Assembly: GCA_013299115.1 (NCBI GenBank)
Contig: JAAFKA010000017.1
Span: 1 to 64,000 of the forward strand
DNA: 64,000 bases
Direction of reading: 5' to 3'
DNA from: Cytophagales bacterium
Lineage (GTDB): Bacteria > Bacteroidota > Bacteroidia > Cytophagales > Thermoflexibacteraceae
How positions within the stretch are numbered: position 1 is the first letter of the stretch; the number at the start of each line of letters is the position of its first letter. This document shows positions 42,786 to 58,271 of the stretch, one piece after another. Both the position numbers and the translations under genes were made by a program. The notes below the pieces were generated by a model, which saw nothing but the letters and a program-made list of their open reading frames with translations, was not told the origin of the DNA and did no database searches.

Positions 42786-44099
42786 ATGAAAACCCCGACC
42801 TATCACATTTTTCTTAGCTTTGCAGACGAGGACAAAGATTTTGCTTTGGCTTTGTGCAAACTGTTGGAGGCAAACCAAATTTCGGTTTGGTGCAGTGCCA
42901 CCCACGTACCCGCAGGGGCAGATATTCACGCAGCGGTGAGCAAAGCCTTGCCTGTTTGCGAATATTTTTTGCCCTTGATAAGCAAAAGTTATAACCGAGC
43001 ATGGCACGAAAAAGAGTTTCATAGTGCCAGCCACAACCGCCACAATGATTGCATAATTCCTGTGTTGTATCAAACCAATTACAACATCATAGAACAAAAT
43101 ATGCACCTATTTTCTCTCATTTCGTCTATTCGGGCATTGGAAGCTACTGACGATACTATTGAGGAAGTTGCACAAAAAATTATAGCAAAAATCAATACTA
43201 CGTTGGCAAGGGGCGAAGCCAGTGCTGCCAACAACATCGACAAGCGTAGAGATTCAAACAAAAGCATTACTTCTTTCAAAACTTTGATTTCAGAAAAAGT
43301 TTTGCATAGCAAGTTGGCACAAATCGTTGTTTTTATGTCCTTGTTCTCTCTTTCTACCAAGTCTATTTATGATTATGTGGCAAGCAAAGAGGAGGAAAGA
43401 CAAATTGCAAAAGCCCAAAAAATAAAGCAAGAACAAATTGCAACCTTGACAGATACCTTAGTGTTGGCAGAGCAAGCTGTGGTGGAGAAAATAGGGTTTG
43501 AAACGGAGGACAATAACGAACTGAAGTCCGTTCTACAGCCAAACGGACTAAAGTCCGTTCTACAGCCAAACGGACTGAAGTCCGTTCTACAGCTAAACGG
43601 ACTAAAGTCCGTTCTACAGCCAAACGGACTGAAGTCCGATGTACAGCAAGATGATAAATTTGCTTTGAAAATACGAAGTGTAGTAGCAAAAAAACAAAGT
43701 AATGGACTACCTATTTTGCACTTTACTATTGTAAATAAAGGCAAAAAATCTGTATTTTTCAATTCTCTTATTTTGGAGGTATCGGAGAGTAGAGGCACAG
43801 AGTTTAAAGAAGTGTTGGGCAAGGAAATTGAAACCATTGGCATCTGGGAAGTACCCATTTTGGCAAGCAATGAAAACATACGTTACAAGCACAAAATAAC
43901 CAAATCTCCCAGCAAATTGGTAGAGCCTAACCAAACAGTGGAGTTAAGTGTGGTTTTGTATAGAGAGCAAAACGGCAAAAGAGTAACACCCGAAGAGGGC
44001 AGAGTGATGCAGATTACGTTTTTGAGTAGTGAAAATTTGCAAGCAAGTTCACGAGATTTCTATTTTGAGAAGAACGGAGATTTTGTTTATGATGAGTAG
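42786..44099 (+). CDS. Membrane-anchored TIR-domain protein
   Basis: 437 residues. TIR domain about 5-140: FLSFADEDKDFALALCKLL, then the BB-loop area, and AWHEKEFHSA with the WxxxE-type Glu of TIR NADases. A TM segment about 178-196 (LAQIVVFMSLFSLSTKSIY), a coiled-coil stretch, then about 245-290 a run of five nine-residue repeats (LKSVLQPNG type) made by a DNA palindrome, and a C-terminal Ig-like beta domain about 300-437. Bacterial TIR proteins deplete NAD+ or make cyclic ADP-ribose signals during phage defence; here that role is inferred. Confidence 0.85.
   Translation: MKTPTYHIFLSFADEDKDFALALCKLLEANQISVWCSATHVPAGADIHAAVSKALPVCEYFLPLISKSYNRAWHEKEFHSASHNRHNDCIIPVLYQTNYNIIEQNMHLFSLISSIRALEATDDTIEEVAQKIIAKINTTLARGEASAANNIDKRRDSNKSITSFKTLISEKVLHSKLAQIVVFMSLFSLSTKSIYDYVASKEEERQIAKAQKIKQEQIATLTDTLVLAEQAVVEKIGFETEDNNELKSVLQPNGLKSVLQPNGLKSVLQLNGLKSVLQPNGLKSDVQQDDKFALKIRSVVAKKQSNGLPILHFTIVNKGKKSVFFNSLILEVSESRGTEFKEVLGKEIETIGIWEVPILASNENIRYKHKITKSPSKLVEPNQTVELSVVLYREQNGKRVTPEEGRVMQITFLSSENLQASSRDFYFEKNGDFVYDE
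43521..43648 (+). repeat. 27-nt tandem repeat of a palindrome inside the TIR gene
   Basis: Units start at 43521, 43548, 43575, 43602 and 43629 (last one partial and diverged), each CTRAAGTCCGTTCTACAG followed by CCAAACGGA. Units 1, 3 and 5 have CTG, units 2 and 4 CTA. The length is a multiple of three, so expansion keeps the frame. The reverse strand is also open through the array. Confidence 0.93.
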
Positions 44100-44214: not shown

Positions 44215-46824
44215 TTACTCTCCTATCATCACAAAAGCCCCCCAATAGTAGGGGTGGCTATAGTCTTTATTTTCTGATATTTTTGCTCGAACAGTTGCTT
44301 GTGCAGCTAACAAAGCTTGCTTTTTGTTTCCTGTTTTAAGCCAATTTGTATAGAAAATAGACATAAAATCTTGGGTGGCTAAATCATTTACTTCCCATAA
44401 AGACATCATAATTGCTTTTGCCCCTGCCACCTTAAAGCCTCTTTGCAACCCATAAACTCCTTCGCCGCTGCTCACTTCGCCCAACCCTGTTTGACAGGCA
44501 GACAAGACGACTAAATCTGTGTTGTCTAAGTTTAAGGTGCTGGCTTCGTAGGCTGTCAATACGCCGTCTTCTGCATTTGTATTGCTGAGGTCGTTTACGC
44601 CTGCTAAGACAATGCCTGAACTCAACATTTCATTACTTTTATTGGTGCTGTTCAATACAAAATAACCATGTGTAGCAATATGTAAAATTTTGGGGCTATT
44701 TGTAGCTTTTAATTGTTCTTCTGCTGCATCTATTTCCAAAAACAAGCCTATTTTGTACTTTTCTTTCTCCAAAAACGTAGCAATTTCTTTTACTTCGGTT
44801 GCTGTGCCTGGCAAAGTTTTAAAGTTTATATTTTTGATACCTACGAAAATGTCTAAATTTTTATCTTCTTCCCAATCATTTTCTTTCCTTTTCTGCTGTT
44901 GTTTAGTTCTTTTGTAATTTGGTTTGCCAAAAAGTTCAGCAGTTTTTTTAGGATTAGACGTATTATTTTGGAAAATATCTTTCAAATTGCCAATCATCGT
45001 CATACTAATCTCCTCTCCCAAAAATTGTTTAGTTTCTGGATTCTGTAATGTATTTAAACTTAGTCGATGATAGATACCATCGGGACAGAAATAAACTTTT
45101 TTTGCACCTTTGAGGGATGATAGAAAAGGTTTCCAAAAAATATTGTAAAAACTTTTGGTATCTTTCAAATTCATAATACTATCATTATAAGCTTTTAAGG
45201 CACTTTCCAATAACCTATTTTTGCCTAAATTTATTACTTGCAAATCACTTTTGCCAATAAACATTGCCAAATAGCTGCTGTCTGCCTCTATATTTATGAT
45301 TTCTATTGCCACTTCATCTGCCTTTAACTGATTTTGTAGGTCTTGATAAGTGTAATTTTTTGGGCTGAAAGCCTTAGCAAAATCTATGGAGGTTATTGCC
45401 AAAGCTCTTTCTATTTCATTTGCTTCGTTTTCCAATTTGGCAATATCAATTCTTTTTCTCTTTCTTTCTATAATAGACAAATTATAGGCTTTGGCAATAT
45501 TATTTTTCAGTAATTGCCAACTTTCAAAGTTATTTATCAAGGTTGTATTTTTACTTGTCAAAATACGTTTTTTCATTTTCTGTGTTTCGCCTAATAGCAT
45601 AGCTTTGGTTTGCAGTTGGAGATTTACCAAATTTTGTAAGAGAATTTGCAGGTTATAGTCTGGTTGTTTTTGTATGATTTCTGCAATAAAACTGTGATAA
45701 TTTTCAAAATAATGTTGCTCAGCTGCCAAGTATTGTCTTTTCTCCTGCTCACTCAAATTGATAAAACTACTTTGAATATGTTTTATTTTTATGTTTATCG
45801 ATTCTACCCACAAAGGTTCTGCCTTCGCATACAAACCTTGACGAGCATACAACAGTCCTAAACCATTGCATAACATAGCATAGTCGGGGTGTTCTTGTCC
45901 AACTGTTTGCAGATAAATAGCCTTTACTTTTATAAATAACTTCTCAGCCTTGTCATATACATCTTGTTCAAAATATAAGACTCCCAAATTGTAACAGAAA
46001 GTTGCATAATCTGCATGGTCTTCTCCATAATTTGTGGAGTAATTTGCTAACACCTCTTCGTATAATGGATAGGCTTGGTCATATTTTTTTTTCAATACAT
46101 ATAGATTTGCCAAATTATTACAAGCCAAAGCATAGTCCATGTCGTTTTTGCCCAATACCTTCAAATAAATTGCTTTTGCCTCTATAAACCAGAATTCAGC
46201 TTTATTATACAGTTCTTGTTCCTGATATGAGGTAGCTAAACCTTCACAAACTCGAGCATAAATTACATCTTTTTGTGAATTATTGATACAAACTTCCTTA
46301 GCCTCTAAAAATAAAGGTACAGCCTGCGCATATAAACCTTGACTATTGTATAAGGTGGCTAAGTTGGCACAAGATAAACCATAGTCTTGATGCTTTTTGC
46401 CCAATACTTTCAATCGTATTTCCTTTGCCTCTTTGTATAAAGGCTCTGCCTTATGATAAATTGTTTTTTCGTGGTATAAAGCTGCCAAATTATCACAAGA
46501 TTCTGCATAGCCCAACGAGTCTTGTGGGAGTATCTCAAAATGTATTTCTTTTGCCTCAATATGTAGTTTTTCGGCTTTATCATATAAATCTTGAATTCTG
46601 TACACAACAGCCAAATTGTTACAGACACTGGCGTAGTTGCTGTGTTTTTTCCCAAATTCTTTTTCAGCAGCCATTTTTGCTTTTTCAAAGACCTTTATGG
46701 CTTCGTCATAGTTTCCCGATGTATAAAGTTGCTGACCTTGCTCATTTAGCGCTGCCCAACTTATTTGTGCATACCCACCCATGCACACACACAAGAAAGA
46801 GAAAATCAACATTACAGTTTTCAT
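44215..46824 (-). CDS. Exported TPR-repeat protein with CHAT protease domain
   Basis: 869 residues from MKTVMLIFSFLCVCMGGYAQ, a signal peptide; 11 upstream codons are possible. Residues about 15-350 hold about eight 42-residue TPR units of kinesin-light-chain type (pattern LATLYNSQGLYAQAVPLFLEA). The C-terminal CHAT (caspase/separase-like) domain has the catalytic His in HIATHGYF and Cys in LSACQTGLG, with SLWEVND and YYWGAFVMIG at its end. TPR-CHAT proteases are used as effectors (for example with type III-E CRISPR), but a signal peptide places this one outside the cytosol. Convergent to the TIR gene. Confidence 0.9.
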   Translation of the reverse strand: MKTVMLIFSFLCVCMGGYAQISWAALNEQGQQLYTSGNYDEAIKVFEKAKMAAEKEFGKKHSNYASVCNNLAVVYRIQDLYDKAEKLHIEAKEIHFEILPQDSLGYAESCDNLAALYHEKTIYHKAEPLYKEAKEIRLKVLGKKHQDYGLSCANLATLYNSQGLYAQAVPLFLEAKEVCINNSQKDVIYARVCEGLATSYQEQELYNKAEFWFIEAKAIYLKVLGKNDMDYALACNNLANLYVLKKKYDQAYPLYEEVLANYSTNYGEDHADYATFCYNLGVLYFEQDVYDKAEKLFIKVKAIYLQTVGQEHPDYAMLCNGLGLLYARQGLYAKAEPLWVESINIKIKHIQSSFINLSEQEKRQYLAAEQHYFENYHSFIAEIIQKQPDYNLQILLQNLVNLQLQTKAMLLGETQKMKKRILTSKNTTLINNFESWQLLKNNIAKAYNLSIIERKRKRIDIAKLENEANEIERALAITSIDFAKAFSPKNYTYQDLQNQLKADEVAIEIINIEADSSYLAMFIGKSDLQVINLGKNRLLESALKAYNDSIMNLKDTKSFYNIFWKPFLSSLKGAKKVYFCPDGIYHRLSLNTLQNPETKQFLGEEISMTMIGNLKDIFQNNTSNPKKTAELFGKPNYKRTKQQQKRKENDWEEDKNLDIFVGIKNINFKTLPGTATEVKEIATFLEKEKYKIGLFLEIDAAEEQLKATNSPKILHIATHGYFVLNSTNKSNEMLSSGIVLAGVNDLSNTNAEDGVLTAYEASTLNLDNTDLVVLSACQTGLGEVSSGEGVYGLQRGFKVAGAKAIMMSLWEVNDLATQDFMSIFYTNWLKTGNKKQALLAAQATVRAKISENKDYSHPYYWGAFVMIGE

Positions 46825-46882
46825 ATTCGCCATGATTTGGTAAAGATTAGTTGCCAAGATAGTAAATTTTGCAAAAAAATAG

Positions 46883-53734: not shown

Positions 53735-54241
53735 ATGTGGTTAAAAAAAATAAAATCTTTCTTAGGTGATGTCTTTATTATTGGCGTTATTGTGTTATTT
53801 TTACTCGAAACTTCACTACATATCCAACCCAACGGGCTTATTATCCTCTTACTCACCATTATAATAACAATTCTATTGTGAGCAAGTGTGCAGGAGGCTT
53901 TGCAACTGAATTTGGCTTTTGTAGAGGAAGCCCGCCGTTTTGCTCTTTTGCATGGGGCAGCATTTGAAGTCGTACTGTTTCCACCCAAAGAATTTGTTTA
54001 TGTCAATTTGCTGCCACCAACCGAACAGCCCAAAGTGTGCAGCGAAGGTATGAAACAAACTTACAAAGTCTTTGCCGACTCCTTAGCCCGCCGCCAGATT
54101 CCTTGCTACGACATGACCGAAGACCTACAAGCCTTAGCCGCACAGGGCAAAAAACTGTATTTTTCTATCGATGGGCATTTTAACCACACAGGCAATTTGG
54201 AAGTGGCGAAACTCTGGGCAGCAAAGGAAAATAAAAAGTAG
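53735..54241 (+). pseudogene. Truncated SGNH-hydrolase-like gene with a 48-codon N-terminal piece
   Basis: ATG 53735 opens a 48-codon, two-TM-like piece that stops at TGA 53879. The same frame then continues without start to 54241 and encodes the end of an SGNH/GDSL-type hydrolase: FEVVLFPPKEFVY and the catalytic-type FSIDGHFNHTGNLEVAKLW (Asp-x-x-His). The central about 200 residues and the Ser motif are absent, so the hydrolase is dead. Whether the N-terminal piece is its old signal anchor (LLETSLHIQPNG resembles such anchors) or a separate small protein is unclear. Confidence 0.65.
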
Positions 54242-54250
54242 GTTTTCTAA

Positions 54251-54273
54251 TGTAGCATACGCTTTAGCGTGTG
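54251..54273. repeat. Family F repeat
   Basis: TGTAGCATACGCTTTAGCGTGTG; within duplicated block copy 1. The partner copy is at 57556. Confidence 0.8.
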
Positions 54274-54298
54274 CATGGTCAGGTACAAGAAGAATTTT

Positions 54299-54329
54299 TT
54301 GGATAGCAAGATTCAATTTTGTATCTTTG
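54299..54329 (+). promoter_or_regulatory. Promoter of nuclease-like gene 1
   Basis: TTG (54299-54301), 20-base spacer, TATCTTTG (54322-54329), a perfect consensus; 18 bases before ATG 54348. Conserved in the paralogous copy at 57603. Confidence 0.8.
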
Positions 54330-54347
54330 TCTAAAACAAAAAGTAAT

Positions 54348-54968
54348 ATGGAAAAGGTAATAAAAATTCCGTCATCTTACAGGTATTACAAATTAGAAAA
54401 TTTGGCAGCTATTTGTGGTATAGAACAAGCAGATGCAGAGAAACTGCTCTTACCTATACAAAATATTCCTGTATCCGACTTTTTGCAAACAACTATAGAC
54501 CGTAACTTAAATATGCCTATGCTAAATGAAAAAGCAAAGTCAGAGTTATTGGTTATGCCAATTTTGATGGAAGTTTGGGCTTTAAATAGGAACTTTAAAC
54601 CTATTTCGGGGGCAACTTTCAATGTAGAACCCAGTAAAGGACTGAAAGGCGTGGCAGATTTTCTTATTTCAAGCAACCCCAATGCAAGAGGAATAGAAAC
54701 ACCAGTAGTAGCTATATTTGAGGCAAAAGATGACAAATTAGACACTTGGTATGGGCAATGCGGGGCAGAGATGTATGCAGCAAGACTATTTAATGAAAGA
54801 AAAGGAAACAATATAAAAATTATTCATGGAGCAGTAACCAATGGTGTTGCTTGGCAATTCTTGAAATTAGAAAGACAAACTCTATTCATAGATACACAAA
54901 AATATGGTATTGCCAACCTGCCCCAACTTTTGGGGGCTATTCAAAAAGTGTATGATTTTTATAAGTAA
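54348..54968 (+). CDS. Predicted PD-(D/E)XK-fold protein, paralogue 1
   Basis: 206 residues from MEKVIKIPSSYRYYKLENL. Nuclease-like core: GVADFLISSNP (Asp), VVAIFEAKDD (Glu-x-Lys), then QCGAEMYAARLFNE helix, the order of PD-(D/E)XK enzymes. It looks like a small conserved hypothetical found also in cyanobacteria. The duplicate at 57651 shares about 85-90 percent of residues by eye, with all core residues kept. Substrate unknown; a stand-alone nuclease or antitoxin-like role is open. Confidence 0.75.
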   Translation: MEKVIKIPSSYRYYKLENLAAICGIEQADAEKLLLPIQNIPVSDFLQTTIDRNLNMPMLNEKAKSELLVMPILMEVWALNRNFKPISGATFNVEPSKGLKGVADFLISSNPNARGIETPVVAIFEAKDDKLDTWYGQCGAEMYAARLFNERKGNNIKIIHGAVTNGVAWQFLKLERQTLFIDTQKYGIANLPQLLGAIQKVYDFYK

Positions 54969-55045: not shown

Positions 55046-55597
55046 CTATGCCACCGCAAAATCGGTATATTGCCTATACTGTGGCGGCTGAAAACCCAAC
55101 ACAATATCTGTTTTCTCAATCCCTTTTGTGACCAGTTCGTCTGCTACAAAACTTTCTGTGTTATTTTGTAGTATCCAAACCTTGCCATCTTGAATACAAA
55201 AATGAAAAGCAACCGTATAAATATACTTATCCCGATGCCAACCTATGGTAAGTAATTGATAGTGTTTATGCTCTTTGTCTATTATAAGATGACTGCGTAA
55301 GTCTGCATAAGCATTTTTTTTGTTTTGAAAATAACTTTGCAGTACTTCGCAAATTATCTGCTCGTATTTATTTATCTTTTCCATATGAAATTCAGAAACT
55401 GAAGATTGTCCCAAAAAAGATTTAATTTCTACTGCAATTTTTTCTAATCCTTTGGCAGCACCAATCACTCTTTCTGCACCTAAGTCAGCCCACAATTCTA
55501 CTTCTCCCGTACTAAGTTCTAAGGGGTCATTGGTAATTTCCCAGTTGTCTTTTAGCAAAGCTGTTTTGACAGCTTCGTGAAAATGGTCTTTTGCCAT
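55046..55597 (-). CDS. XisH-XisI fusion protein
   Basis: 183 residues from MAKDHFHEAVKTALL. The first about 78 residues are the N-terminal half of XisH (KDHFHEAVK, LWADLGAERVIGAAKG, KIAVEIKSFLG, with the PD-(D/E)XK-like Asp and Glu-x-Lys). After SEFH comes a full-length XisI (MEKINKYEQIICEVL, HYQLLTIGW, VWILQNNTE, DIVLGFQPPQYRQYT..AVA). In cyanobacteria xisH and xisI are adjacent separate genes needed for fdxN-element excision; XisH is normally about 138 residues, so its C-terminal half is lost by in-frame deletion. Function here unknown. Confidence 0.85.
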   Translation of the reverse strand: MAKDHFHEAVKTALLKDNWEITNDPLELSTGEVELWADLGAERVIGAAKGLEKIAVEIKSFLGQSSVSEFHMEKINKYEQIICEVLQSYFQNKKNAYADLRSHLIIDKEHKHYQLLTIGWHRDKYIYTVAFHFCIQDGKVWILQNNTESFVADELVTKGIEKTDIVLGFQPPQYRQYTDFAVA

Positions 55598-56165
55598 ATT
55601 TTTAATGCTTATAGTTGGGCAAAAATACAAAATTATCCGTAACAAGCCCTTTAGGGCCTGCCAAAGAAAAAAAAATCTCAATTGTACTTTTTATGGTTTT
55701 TATCGGGGCTGCCACCAGCAAAAATTAAGTTTAAGTGATAAAATCGGCTAAAAAAATATTTTTATCATTTTTTATATTTTTGTTTGTTTTATCAAAAATA
55801 AAGTTTTATCATTGTGGCAAATAACAAGAGTGAATAAAGCAAAAGGGATACTTCTCCTAAAAAAATTGACGAGTAAATGACTACGTTCTACTACGTCTCA
55901 CAAAATTATGAACCCCTTTTGAGTGTTTGCGGTGATTATTAACGGATAATTGACAAAAGAAACAATTAAGCTACTTTATGTCTGATACAATTTTGTAATT
56001 TGTAACCCGCAAACTCTTTTATTCACTGCGGATTGCCGCCCACTTGTATTTTTTATAGATTTAGCTTGCAATTCTTTTCGTTTTTTTGCACCCAAAACCC
56101 AGAAAAACGCAACGCAAGCCCTCCACCCCACGCCCAAAAATCACGTTTTAAGCCATATATTTGTT
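55598..56165. other. Non-coding region with TTTATCA sites and an unexplained structured stretch
   Basis: 55641-55662 holds the palindrome GCCCTTTAGGGC. 55735-55820 has four TGATAAA/TTTATCA motifs. 55926-56014 has a long-range stem GTTTGCGG / CCGCAAAC, then a hairpin GCGGATTGCCGC (56028-56039) and an unusually GC-rich purine-poor run about 56098-56145. No ORF of note. It may be a degraded mobile element end or a structured RNA; I cannot assign it. Confidence 0.4.
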
Positions 56166-56251
56166 TTAAGTGCCGTTAGGCACGAAATATTTATAGTAAA
56201 CAAATGCACCCCCTCTCTCCTCTTTTTTGTGCCGTTAGGCACTTTATATTG
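56166..56251 (+). repeat. Family C palindrome doublet, left boundary of the XRE/SSB segment
   Basis: AAGTGCCGTTAGGCAC with tail GAAATATTTATAGTA, spacer AAACAAATGCACCCCC and a TCTC-rich run, then GTGCCGTTAGGCAC (56229-56242). The inverse of 57104-57190 over about 80 bases. Confidence 0.85.
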
Positions 56252-56311
56252 GTAGCAAATCCAAAATTACACCGCAAAGGTCGCTAAGATTACGCAGAGA
56301 AACGCAGAAAA

Positions 56312-56590
56312 TTATAATTCTTTTATTTTTTCAGCAAATTTTAAAAGTTCTTTATATAAAGTGTCTTTTTTATTTTCGTTTCTTTTTTCCACTTCTTTAA
56401 AGCCTACCAATTCAATCTGTAAAATTTCGCATATTTTTACTAATTTATCTAAGGTAATTTCACTATTGCCACTTTCTAAGCTGCTATATTGAGCTTGCGA
56501 CAAGCCAAGAAAAACCCCCATTTCACCTTGTGAAATTTTTTCTTTTTTTCTTTTCTCTCTAATGGCATCTAAAATATCTTGTTTGCTCAT
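56312..56590 (-). CDS. XRE-family transcriptional regulator
   Basis: 92 residues from MSKQDILDAIREKRKKEKI. HTH of Xre/Cro type (ISQGEMGVFLGLSQAQYSSLESGNSEITLDKLVKICEIL split over the fold, recognition helix QAQYSSLESG) followed by a Lys/Glu-rich tail. A 12-codon longer start would lie over a perfect 11-bp palindrome (56594-56619), so the shorter start leaves that site as an operator right before the gene, suggesting autoregulation. Divergent to the SSB-like gene. Confidence 0.85.
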   Translation of the reverse strand: MSKQDILDAIREKRKKEKISQGEMGVFLGLSQAQYSSLESGNSEITLDKLVKICEILQIELVGFKEVEKRNENKKDTLYKELLKFAEKIKEL

Positions 56591-56593
56591 ATC

Positions 56594-56619
56594 CTTTTGA
56601 TAAAAAAGTTTATCAAAAG
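56594..56619. promoter_or_regulatory. Palindromic operator of the XRE gene
   Basis: CTTTTGATAAA, AAAG, TTTATCAAAAG: perfect 11-bp arms, four bases before the start codon. Half-sites TTTATCA recur near 55738, 55770, 55797, 55812, 56660 and 57308. Confidence 0.7.
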
Positions 56620-56740
56620 TAAACAAAAATAACTAAAAAATAAATAAACTGTAAAAATATTTATCATTTAGTTTGTTTTGTATTTATATTTTAAATAAAA
56701 TTGCAATATATTTAAAATATAAATTTAATCAATTACCACT

Positions 56741-57116
56741 ATGCAACGTATCGCAATTATCGGACATCTCTCAAGCTGTGTAGAAGTCTGCAACCAAGAA
56801 AATAAGGCTTTCCTCCGCTTTCAGGTAGCTGTAAAAGATAGAGAGATTGACCTCTATACAGGCGAAGTAAAAGAAGAAACGCAACATTTTGAGGCGGTGT
56901 ATTGGACTAATCAGACCAAAATAGCCAACCAACTCAAAGAAGGTAGCAAAAGATGTAGCTTATGTATTGGGCGTGGCTGTGGCAACTGCCAACCGTAGAA
57001 TAAAGGAAGTAAAACTTTATTTTGCAGTGGCTAAATACAAACGAATTACGTTAGGTCAGTTGTGCCAATTTTTCAAATTAGACTTAACGCAAATGCAAAA
57101 GAAGTTAAACTCCTAA
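56741..57116 (+). pseudogene. SSB-like (OB-fold) gene with frameshift
   Basis: ATG 56741 opens MQRIAIIGHLSS..VCNQENKAFLRFQVAV..TQHFEAVYWTNQTKIANQLKEGSK, a single-stranded-DNA-binding OB fold; it then stops at 56996 after a shift. The +1 frame from about 56951 continues coherently (VLGVAVATANRRIKE, then KRITLGQLCQFFKLDLTQMQKK) to TAA at 57114, ending inside the family C palindrome. SSB-like proteins of this kind are common on conjugative elements. A one-base insertion in the AAAA run at 56947 would explain it. Confidence 0.6.
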
Positions 57117-57190
57117 CGGAGTTAAAAAAAAGGGAGGAGAGGGGGTGCCTTGTTTACTATAAATATTTCGTGCCTAACGGCACTAAAAAA
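57104..57190 (-). repeat. Family C palindrome doublet, right boundary, inverted
   Basis: AACTCCTAACGGAGTT (57108-57123), a GGGAGGAGAGGGGGTGCC spacer, then TACTATAAATATTTC and GTGCCTAACGGCAC (57170-57183). Reverse complement of 56166-56251 with about ten changes. Confidence 0.85.
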
Positions 57191-57602
57191 AGAAAAGGCT
57201 TTTTTATTTAATTGTACTTTTCACAGGTTAAAATTTTATACGTTCTTTGAAAACTTAAAAACGGCAAAAGTTTTTTTTACAAAATTAAGGAAAAAAATAG
57301 TAAAAGTTTATCAAAAGTCGGTATTTTACACTACTTTTGCTCAGCTTTTGGCTCTTTTTGGCTTGTTACAGATAACGAGGTAAACTCTAAAATGTGCCAA
57401 ATTATAGCCCTAATGGGCGAAACGGACTAAAGTCCGTTATACAATTTTACGTTAAAAAACCATGATAAGATAATTTTATACTGAAAATTCATTGATTTTA
57501 TTGGAGGTGGCGAAACTTTGGGCAGCAAGGGAAAATAAAAAGTAGCTTATCAAATATAGCATACGCCTTAGCGTGTGCATAGCCAAGTGGTGGCAAAAAT
57601 TT
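57191..57602. other. Intergenic, repeats and duplication junction
   Basis: A family A palindrome AACGGACTAAAGTCCGTT (57421-57438) with GCCCTAATGGGC just before it, a TTTATCAAAAG half-site (about 57308), then from 57506 the duplicated SGNH tail (codons for EVAKLWAAR) and a family F repeat (57556-57578). A 77-codon open frame at 57150 has no coding character. Confidence 0.65.
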
Positions 57603-57633
57603 TTGGATAGCAAGATTCAATTTTGTATATTTG
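57603..57633 (+). promoter_or_regulatory. Promoter of nuclease-like gene 2
   Basis: TTG (57603-57605), 20 bases, TATATTTG (57626-57633). Both boxes are kept relative to copy 1 while flanks have changed. Confidence 0.75.
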
Positions 57634-57650
57634 TGTAAAACAAAAACCAA

Positions 57651-58271
57651 ATGGCAACTGCAATAAAAATACCATCTTCCTATCGATATTACAAATTAGA
57701 GGATTTGAAAAAAGTTTGTGGTATAGCACAAGCAGATGCTGACAAAATGTTGTTACCAATACAAGATATTCCTGTGTCTGTCTTTCTGCAAACAACTATA
57801 GACCGTAATTTGAATTTGCCTATGCTTAATGAAAAGGCAAAATCAGAATTATTGGTAATGCCTATTTTAACAGAAGTGTGGGCTTTAAATAGGAATTTTA
57901 AACCTATTTCTGGAGCAACTTTCAATGTAGAACCCAGCAAAGGTTTAAAAGGCGTGGCAGATTTTCTTATTTCAAGCAACCCTAATGCGAGGGGAATAGA
58001 AACACCTGTCGTAGCTATTTTTGAAGCAAAAGATGACAAATTAGAAAGTTGGTATGGGCAGTGTGGTGCAGAAATGTATGCAGCCCGACTATTTAATGAA
58101 AGAGAAGATAACAACATTCATACGATACATGGGGCTGTAACAAATGGTGTTGCTTGGCAATTTCTGAAATTAGAAGGACAAACTTTGTTTATTGATACGC
58201 AAATTTATGCTATTGCCAACTTGCCCCAACTCTTAGGGGCTATTCAAAAAGTGTATGATTTTTATAAGTAG
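57651..58271 (+). CDS. Predicted PD-(D/E)XK-fold protein, paralogue 2
   Basis: 206 residues, same length as the 54348 gene, MATAIKIPSSYRYYKLEDL. GVADFLIS, AIFEAKDD and QCGAEMYAARLF are unchanged; changes concentrate in residues 2-30 (KKVCGIAQADADKM) and near the C-terminus (EDNNIHTIH, QIYAIANL). The kept core and promoter suggest both copies are functional. An aldehyde dehydrogenase gene follows with its own promoter. Confidence 0.75.
   Translation: MATAIKIPSSYRYYKLEDLKKVCGIAQADADKMLLPIQDIPVSVFLQTTIDRNLNLPMLNEKAKSELLVMPILTEVWALNRNFKPISGATFNVEPSKGLKGVADFLISSNPNARGIETPVVAIFEAKDDKLESWYGQCGAEMYAARLFNEREDNNIHTIHGAVTNGVAWQFLKLEGQTLFIDTQIYAIANLPQLLGAIQKVYDFYK

Follow-up and report, generated by a model that had tools for sequence, protein, structure and literature searches.

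The XisH (PF08814; structures 2inb and 2okf) and XisI (PF08869; structures 2nlv and 3d7q) families are best described from the fdxN element of Nostoc 7120, where XisHI is reported to be required for excision; a XisF-XisH-XisI complex was proposed in 2014 (quoted in PMC4853749). A paper on the PD-(D/E)XK superfamily names XisH as an already known member (PMC1189080), and the role of both proteins is called unclear in the literature (PMC2674450 among the sources). The genes can be numerous; Thiomargarita Bud S10 is reported to carry four xisH and seven xisI (PMC4853749). Both domains also occur among the toxins predicted for extracellular contractile injection systems in Moorena (PMC11297309). 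This is the nearest to a toxin role for XisHI that we found in the open literature, which, surveyed mostly by listing, yielded no treatment of the pair as toxin and antitoxin. The putative LexA site reported in the promoter of a Lyngbya xisH (PMC2674450) would suit a damage-linked nuclease, although it proves nothing.

A truncated XisH joined to a complete XisI

The window analyzed here (the whole stretch of 64,000 nucleotides, from a Cytophagales bacterium) encodes on its minus strand a single open reading frame (ORF; 55046..55597) in which the N-terminal half of XisH precedes a complete XisI, as identified by reading of the ORF, Pfam profiles, and structure-profile matches. In this one assembly it runs from an ATG at 55597-55595 to a TAG at 55048-55046 and encodes 183 amino acids with zero internal stops; the frame stays open upstream of the ATG and would encode 211 amino acids if counted from a TTG. 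The Pfam XisI profile is matched completely (2e-40, 138 bits; residues 72-182, profile positions 1-110 of 110), and the XisH profile in truncated form (1.2e-27, 97.2 bits against a cut-off of 25; residues 2-83, profile positions 3-86 of 134), the last residues of the latter match already belonging to XisI. By E-value, both matches are far beyond chance. Alignment to PDB entries places the boundary precisely: residues 2-72 resemble XisH (2inb/2okf), residues 72-183 resemble XisI 2nlv, and residues 72-182 resemble 3d7q, so that the join falls between His71 and Met72 (nucleotides 55385/55384). The Pfam and PDB alignments bear out the preliminary description of this DNA, which had placed XisH and XisI in one 183-residue ORF at these coordinates with the junction at the XisI start Met. 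NCBIfam has no match for the fused ORF, nor for a full XisH, and a search of the fused ORF against the PADLOC 2.0.0 anti-phage defence models returned 0 families at E up to 1.

The XisI part (residues 72-183 plus the stop codon; 55046..55384, minus strand) is a full-length PF08869 domain that scores above the cut-off and has a known fold. In a structure model of the fusion this half has a pLDDT of 80-97 by blocks of ten and superimposes on 2nlv with a Z of 20.1 (112 residues aligned, rmsd 1.1). All nine columns invariant in 27 other XisI proteins are kept. The XisI part most likely still folds, either within the hybrid or as a product of its own retained ATG.

The XisH-derived part (residues 1-71; 55385..55597, minus strand), delimited by alignment to full XisH, is 52–71% identical to the 17 XisH N-halves with which it was aligned. 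As a reference for what is missing we used the full XisH of a Saprospiraceae metagenome-assembled genome (MAG; locus L009, whose numbering is used below), modeled with AlphaFold2 from an alignment of 31 full XisH proteins and the window fragment (pLDDT 89, pTM 0.84). In this model the E-x-K strand spans residues 53-59, the next helix 67-88, and the next strand 93-99. The fusion is cut at about residue 72 of 138, about one turn into helix 67-88, and strand 93-99 is lost. XisH had been described as cut after its ExK strand, which the model confirms.

The same description held that the fusion keeps the nuclease-like residues. The putative active-site D..E-x-K (columns D39, E58, and K60, assigned from the motif) is indeed present, but the statement misleads, as the fusion lacks most of the helix that follows and the core strand after it. 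With the window's own row excluded, the 31 full XisH proteins have 21 invariant columns; the fusion keeps 17 of these, all before the cut and all with the expected residue, and lacks A74, G76, Y81, and L96. Of a further 14 columns conserved at 90% or more, seven are kept, and Q77, L85, R92, L94, A97, F107, and W136 are lost. The fused ORF passes the PF08814 score cut-off and retains the active-site motif, but it has neither a full-length domain nor a complete PD-(D/E)XK core. It contains a XisH-derived stump and not a XisH. In the model of the fusion, the N-half has a confidence of 44-76, a value that says little because the alignment held XisI rows only.

The fold of the full XisH is nuclease-like. 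Its model matches 2okf/2inb with a Z of 23.6, and the rest follow far lower; these include the nucleases EndoMS (9.0), a Pyrococcus repair endonuclease (8.7), CdiA-CT (8.2), and PaqCI (7.9), as well as AF1548 (9.7) and AF2093 (8.7), both of unknown function, and some non-nucleases, with Z values below 8-9 being common in such comparisons. Because the nuclease fold is incomplete in the fusion, its nuclease is most likely dead.

We found no second fused ORF. Among the ORFs of 208 loci, 178 match the XisH half alone, 194 match the XisI half alone, and four match both; all four are the window's own locus, which is present four times in the set. Fusions with the same junction, for which a database search had been suggested, were thus not found elsewhere in the 208 loci, and we reject the fusion as a recurrent architecture. 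The loci closest to it are from Dolichospermum and a Thermoanaerobaculia MAG, followed by five from Saprospiraceae, Cytophagales, and Arcicella MAGs. Carriage by phages or viruses is likewise rejected, with zero matches among phage records and viral contigs. Plasmid records matching the fusion number 46; among the 40 listed, 31 match both halves as separate pieces, five match XisI only, four are from Leptolyngbya boryana, and none matches XisH alone. In the one of the four L. boryana records that was inspected, XisH is annotated as two ORFs beside XisI. A Synechocystis plasmid carries XisI without an annotated XisH, near a VapC-type pair.

Sister loci and surroundings

The window's genome (5.5 Mb in 74 contigs) contains three XisH/XisI loci, each with a different xisH deletion, mapped against six full XisH proteins. 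At the window locus (contig C9), XisH is kept to about residue 72 and joined to xisI in frame. At C6, XisH residues 1-58 remain, followed out of frame by a tail that resumes at about residue 121, and xisI has a stop; at C73, residues 1-30 remain, followed by a tail from about residue 104, again out of frame, and xisI is intact. One in-frame join out of three is the chance expectation. A comparable deletion occurs in a Dolichospermum locus (L007), in which an out-of-frame deletion spans about residues 72 to 123 of xisH and xisI is intact.

The preliminary description had read the fusion as a sign that the two proteins act in a complex. A fusion that was found once, and that arose through one of three distinct xisH deletions within a single genome, is no evidence of partnership; the arguments for partnership are the conservation of the operon and the XisF-XisH-XisI proposal in the literature. 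The description had also reasoned that a separate intact xisH elsewhere, with this copy frameshifted in other strains, would mark the locus as a decaying remnant. A profile search of the genome's contigs turned up zero intact xisH copies, and in the single genome searched from the same genus both XisH and XisI are absent. It is the sister loci instead that support the remnant reading. Both families are rare in the phylum: in a sample of 395 genomes, including the window's own, XisI is found in three and XisH in four; one genome (G111) carries XisH in broken pieces and lacks XisI.

TCAT occurs at both would-be breakpoints in relatives (e.g., L016); a role for microhomology at the junction would be a guess. 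At the C6 locus a HEPN gene lies directly upstream of the broken xisHI copy (L002, 1810-2528), adjoined by an ORF that by eye resembles its nucleotidyltransferase partner.

A 1743-bp mobile element (55633..57375), found by a search for inverted ends, lies upstream of the fusion and is not part of it. Its 16-nt inverted ends are TTATCCGTAACAAGCC (55633-55648) and TTATCTGTAACAAGCC (57360-57375, minus strand), with two matches versus a mean of 0.00 in shuffles; the end sequence is TTATCYGTAACAAGCC, and the element lies 35 nt upstream of the fusion's ATG. It contains an HTH_3 regulator (56312..56626, minus strand; Pfam 3.6e-12) and an SSB-like ORF (56741..56998, plus strand) whose 25.8 bits are just under the cut-off of 26. 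At the left end of further copies, an integrase-core ORF (C67), an N6_Mtase ORF (C13), and another ORF (C24) enter the element and stop, as if cut. The C19 copy has both ends, 3.6 kb apart. The C67 copy contains or adjoins an IS110-type transposase ORF, and the C19 copy holds what by eye is a shorter ORF sharing its start. Five copies, including the window's (55627-55648), share A-C-A-A-n-A just outside the left end, which either reflects a preferred target or belongs to the element end. Within the element, two 37-nt repeats (56164-56200 and 56223-56259) contain GTGCCGTTAGGCAC and have many short matches in the genome, several of them clustered on C6 and C74. We saw no sign at the locus of a tie between the element and xisHI.

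The fusion and the element sit between two copies of a direct repeat (54197..54967 and 57501..58270, both on the plus strand) that are 85% identical over 771 bp. Given the element and these repeats, the region was fairly called transposition-rich. Each copy encodes an ORF of approximately 206 amino acids (54348-54968 and 57651-58271) with no Pfam family, and that of the first copy is also without an NCBIfam match; by eye it appears to contain an EAK motif, which would be restriction-like. Relatives of this ORF lie near xisHI in Dolichospermum, Hassallia, and Adonisia loci. We considered it as a co-evolving partner of xisHI and rejected this, as it occurs near xisHI in only three of 80 loci (L007, L014, and L057; flanks of up to 3 kb). 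Elsewhere in the window a TIR_2-domain protein (42786-44099) adjoins a TPR-CHAT protein on the opposite strand (44215-46857), a candidate defence or signalling locus. No RNA family reached the gathering threshold between 50 and 62 kb of the window.

One-sided loss of xisH

To the three loci of the window's genome we added counts from two wider sets. The first comprises 59 near genomes, including the window's own, with 22 XisI and 15 XisH rows sorted by eye (a short XisI match of 91 positions in G049 and a XisH match starting at position 10 in G009 were both counted as intact). Seven XisH are intact, and all seven lie beside XisI. Eight XisI are damaged or partial, and seven intact XisI lack an intact XisH: C9 (the window fusion) and C73 in the window's genome, G003:C73, G005:C25, G002:C530, G054:C9, and G054:C49:333818.

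The second set derives from 20 starting loci, hand-picked from an 80-locus set, in 19 genomes. These genomes together contain 257 XisI and 193 XisH matches, fragments included, and copy numbers reach 36 XisI and 28 XisH matches per genome. XisH rows exceed XisI rows in three of the 19 (G070, G072, and G073), and in each the surplus consists of fragments. The asymmetry count omits five many-copy genomes, in which XisI:XisH totals are 19:15 (G059), 18:12 (G061), 36:28 (G064), 27:16 (G068), and 25:14 (G074), leaving 14 genomes with complete rows (132 XisI and 108 XisH), of which one is an Electronema MAG and the other 13 are cyanobacteria. The copies can be densely packed; in the cyanobacterium G064, with its 36 XisI genome-wide, four XisI and four XisH matches fall within about 5 kb (C141, 28457-33498).

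In the 14 genomes, a XisI counted as full from 93 positions upward and a XisH as intact from 125 upward, in both cases without stops. Of 104 full XisI, 62 have an intact XisH. For the other 42, XisH is full-length with a stop in eight cases, a fragment in 16, and not found in 18, these last including three minus-strand rows that may lie close to a contig end (G076:C19:831355, G071:C33, and G062:C37). Viewed from the other side, 62 of 63 intact XisH have an intact XisI, one has a shortened XisI (G060:C85), and none is alone. Where both genes are detectable, a broken XisH outnumbers a broken XisI by 24 to 1, with p values (binomial 1.5e-6, Fisher 1e-9) that are too strong, because the rows share ancestry and are not independent. 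The direction of the one-sided loss is the same in the near-genome set. Decay has struck XisI too in several places, including the C6 copy of the window's genome.

Intact pairs are tightly arranged: the profile matches of the 62 are 3-21 nt apart, and the xisH stop and xisI start overlap in all five relatives inspected. XisHI in general thus consists of two small adjacent or overlapping genes, as expected of a type II toxin-antitoxin system, and the further expectation that a toxin is not kept without its antitoxin agrees with 0 of 63 intact XisH being found without any XisI. This one-sided loss is what a nuclease toxin and its antidote would leave behind, and it suggests that XisI may be the antidote to a XisH nuclease.

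Origin of the fusion and comparison with known systems

We consider the fusion to be probably a disarmed xisHI pair that has kept xisI, in which xisH would have been lost first because its nuclease may be harmful unless XisI restrains it. The observed basis of this reading consists of the ORF itself, three deletions that each differ, the nuclease-like XisH fold, and the one-sided loss. The starting point would have been an ordinary overlapping xisH-xisI operon, in which a deletion may have begun after xisH codon 71, where the ExK strand has just ended, and reached as far as the start codon of xisI. The ends would by luck have joined in frame, leaving XisI whole with a XisH stump ahead of it. 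If XisH is a PD-(D/E)XK nuclease that is toxic to the host unless checked by XisI in the manner of a toxin-antitoxin pair, loss of the nuclease would be harmless or welcome, and loss of the antidote first would not. A XisH nuclease kept under control by XisI would best explain why xisH goes first and xisI stays. The retained XisI may then guard against incoming XisHI.

More tentatively, and with somewhat less confidence than we place in this account of the window locus, XisHI may at root pair a nuclease toxin and an antidote, or act in self-restriction, with solitary XisI and disarmed loci acting as antidotes against incoming XisHI and the control of fdxN excision arising as a later use. By itself the fusion is a broken gene pair, but it points to the question of the function of XisH and XisI and of the reason for their many copies per genome. 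If XisH is toxic without XisI, a large class of cyanobacterial genes, named for a single instance of excision, would turn out to be a family of toxins and antidotes. The observation is confirmed and its origin is ordinary, with one testable idea behind it.

A XisI with a function of its own, for which XisH is an optional partner, could yield the same asymmetry. Also weighing against the disarmed-pair reading are G111, where XisH pieces stand without XisI, the damaged xisI of the C6 copy, the lack of a PADLOC match, and the role in fdxN excision reported for Nostoc 7120, which is of another kind. Alternatively, the locus may be a horizontally acquired, useless pair that is rotting neutrally, with the XisI frame merely not hit yet. 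The damage to all three loci of the genome, including a xisI with a stop, is consistent with this, as are the absence of both genes from the same-genus genome and their rarity in the phylum, and the element 35 nt upstream of the ATG may have severed the promoter. Neutral decay should affect both genes alike, however, and the ratio of 24 to 1 and the absence of any intact XisH without XisI argue against it, which makes it the less likely account, with perhaps a modest chance of being correct.

A working hybrid, in which the catalytic half of XisH is carried by XisI (e.g., completed by a dimer partner) and serves as a tethered or regulated nuclease or as a DNA-binding XisI, would explain the in-frame junction exactly at the XisI Met and the undamaged state of the invariant columns, 17 in XisH ahead of the cut and nine in XisI. 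We consider it improbable given the cut within helix 67-88, the loss of strand 93-99 and of four invariant XisH columns, the lack of a second fused ORF in 208 loci or of any phage or viral match, and the different, out-of-frame cuts of the sister loci. Highly improbable is an excision-control pair serving the recombinase of a local element, as for the cyanobacterial fdxN element: the role is named in the literature and a mobile element adjoins the locus, but that element has its own ends and has copies at sites where no XisH or XisI was found, and other bacteria are reported to carry xisHI but not xisF (PMC4853749).

Compared with the XisH family, the fusion shares the N-half and the D..ExK motif and ends at about residue 72 of 138. 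Compared with the XisI family, its domain is complete and is preceded by a 71-residue XisH stump. The Nostoc fdxN element encodes the same two families in the same order (XisF-XisH-XisI), whereas here xisH is deleted. The Moorena contractile-injection toxins have the XisH and XisI domains in common with the window locus; those, however, are predictions of injected proteins, and an antidote role for XisI is absent from the available text (PMC11297309).

XisHI also resembles type II toxin-antitoxin and restriction-modification pairs without their toxin in its overlapping operon, its nuclease-like fold, and a partner that is often alone. Pairs of both kinds that have lost the toxin are a known pattern. 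Like the toxin of such systems, the predicted nuclease XisH was found intact only beside its partner.
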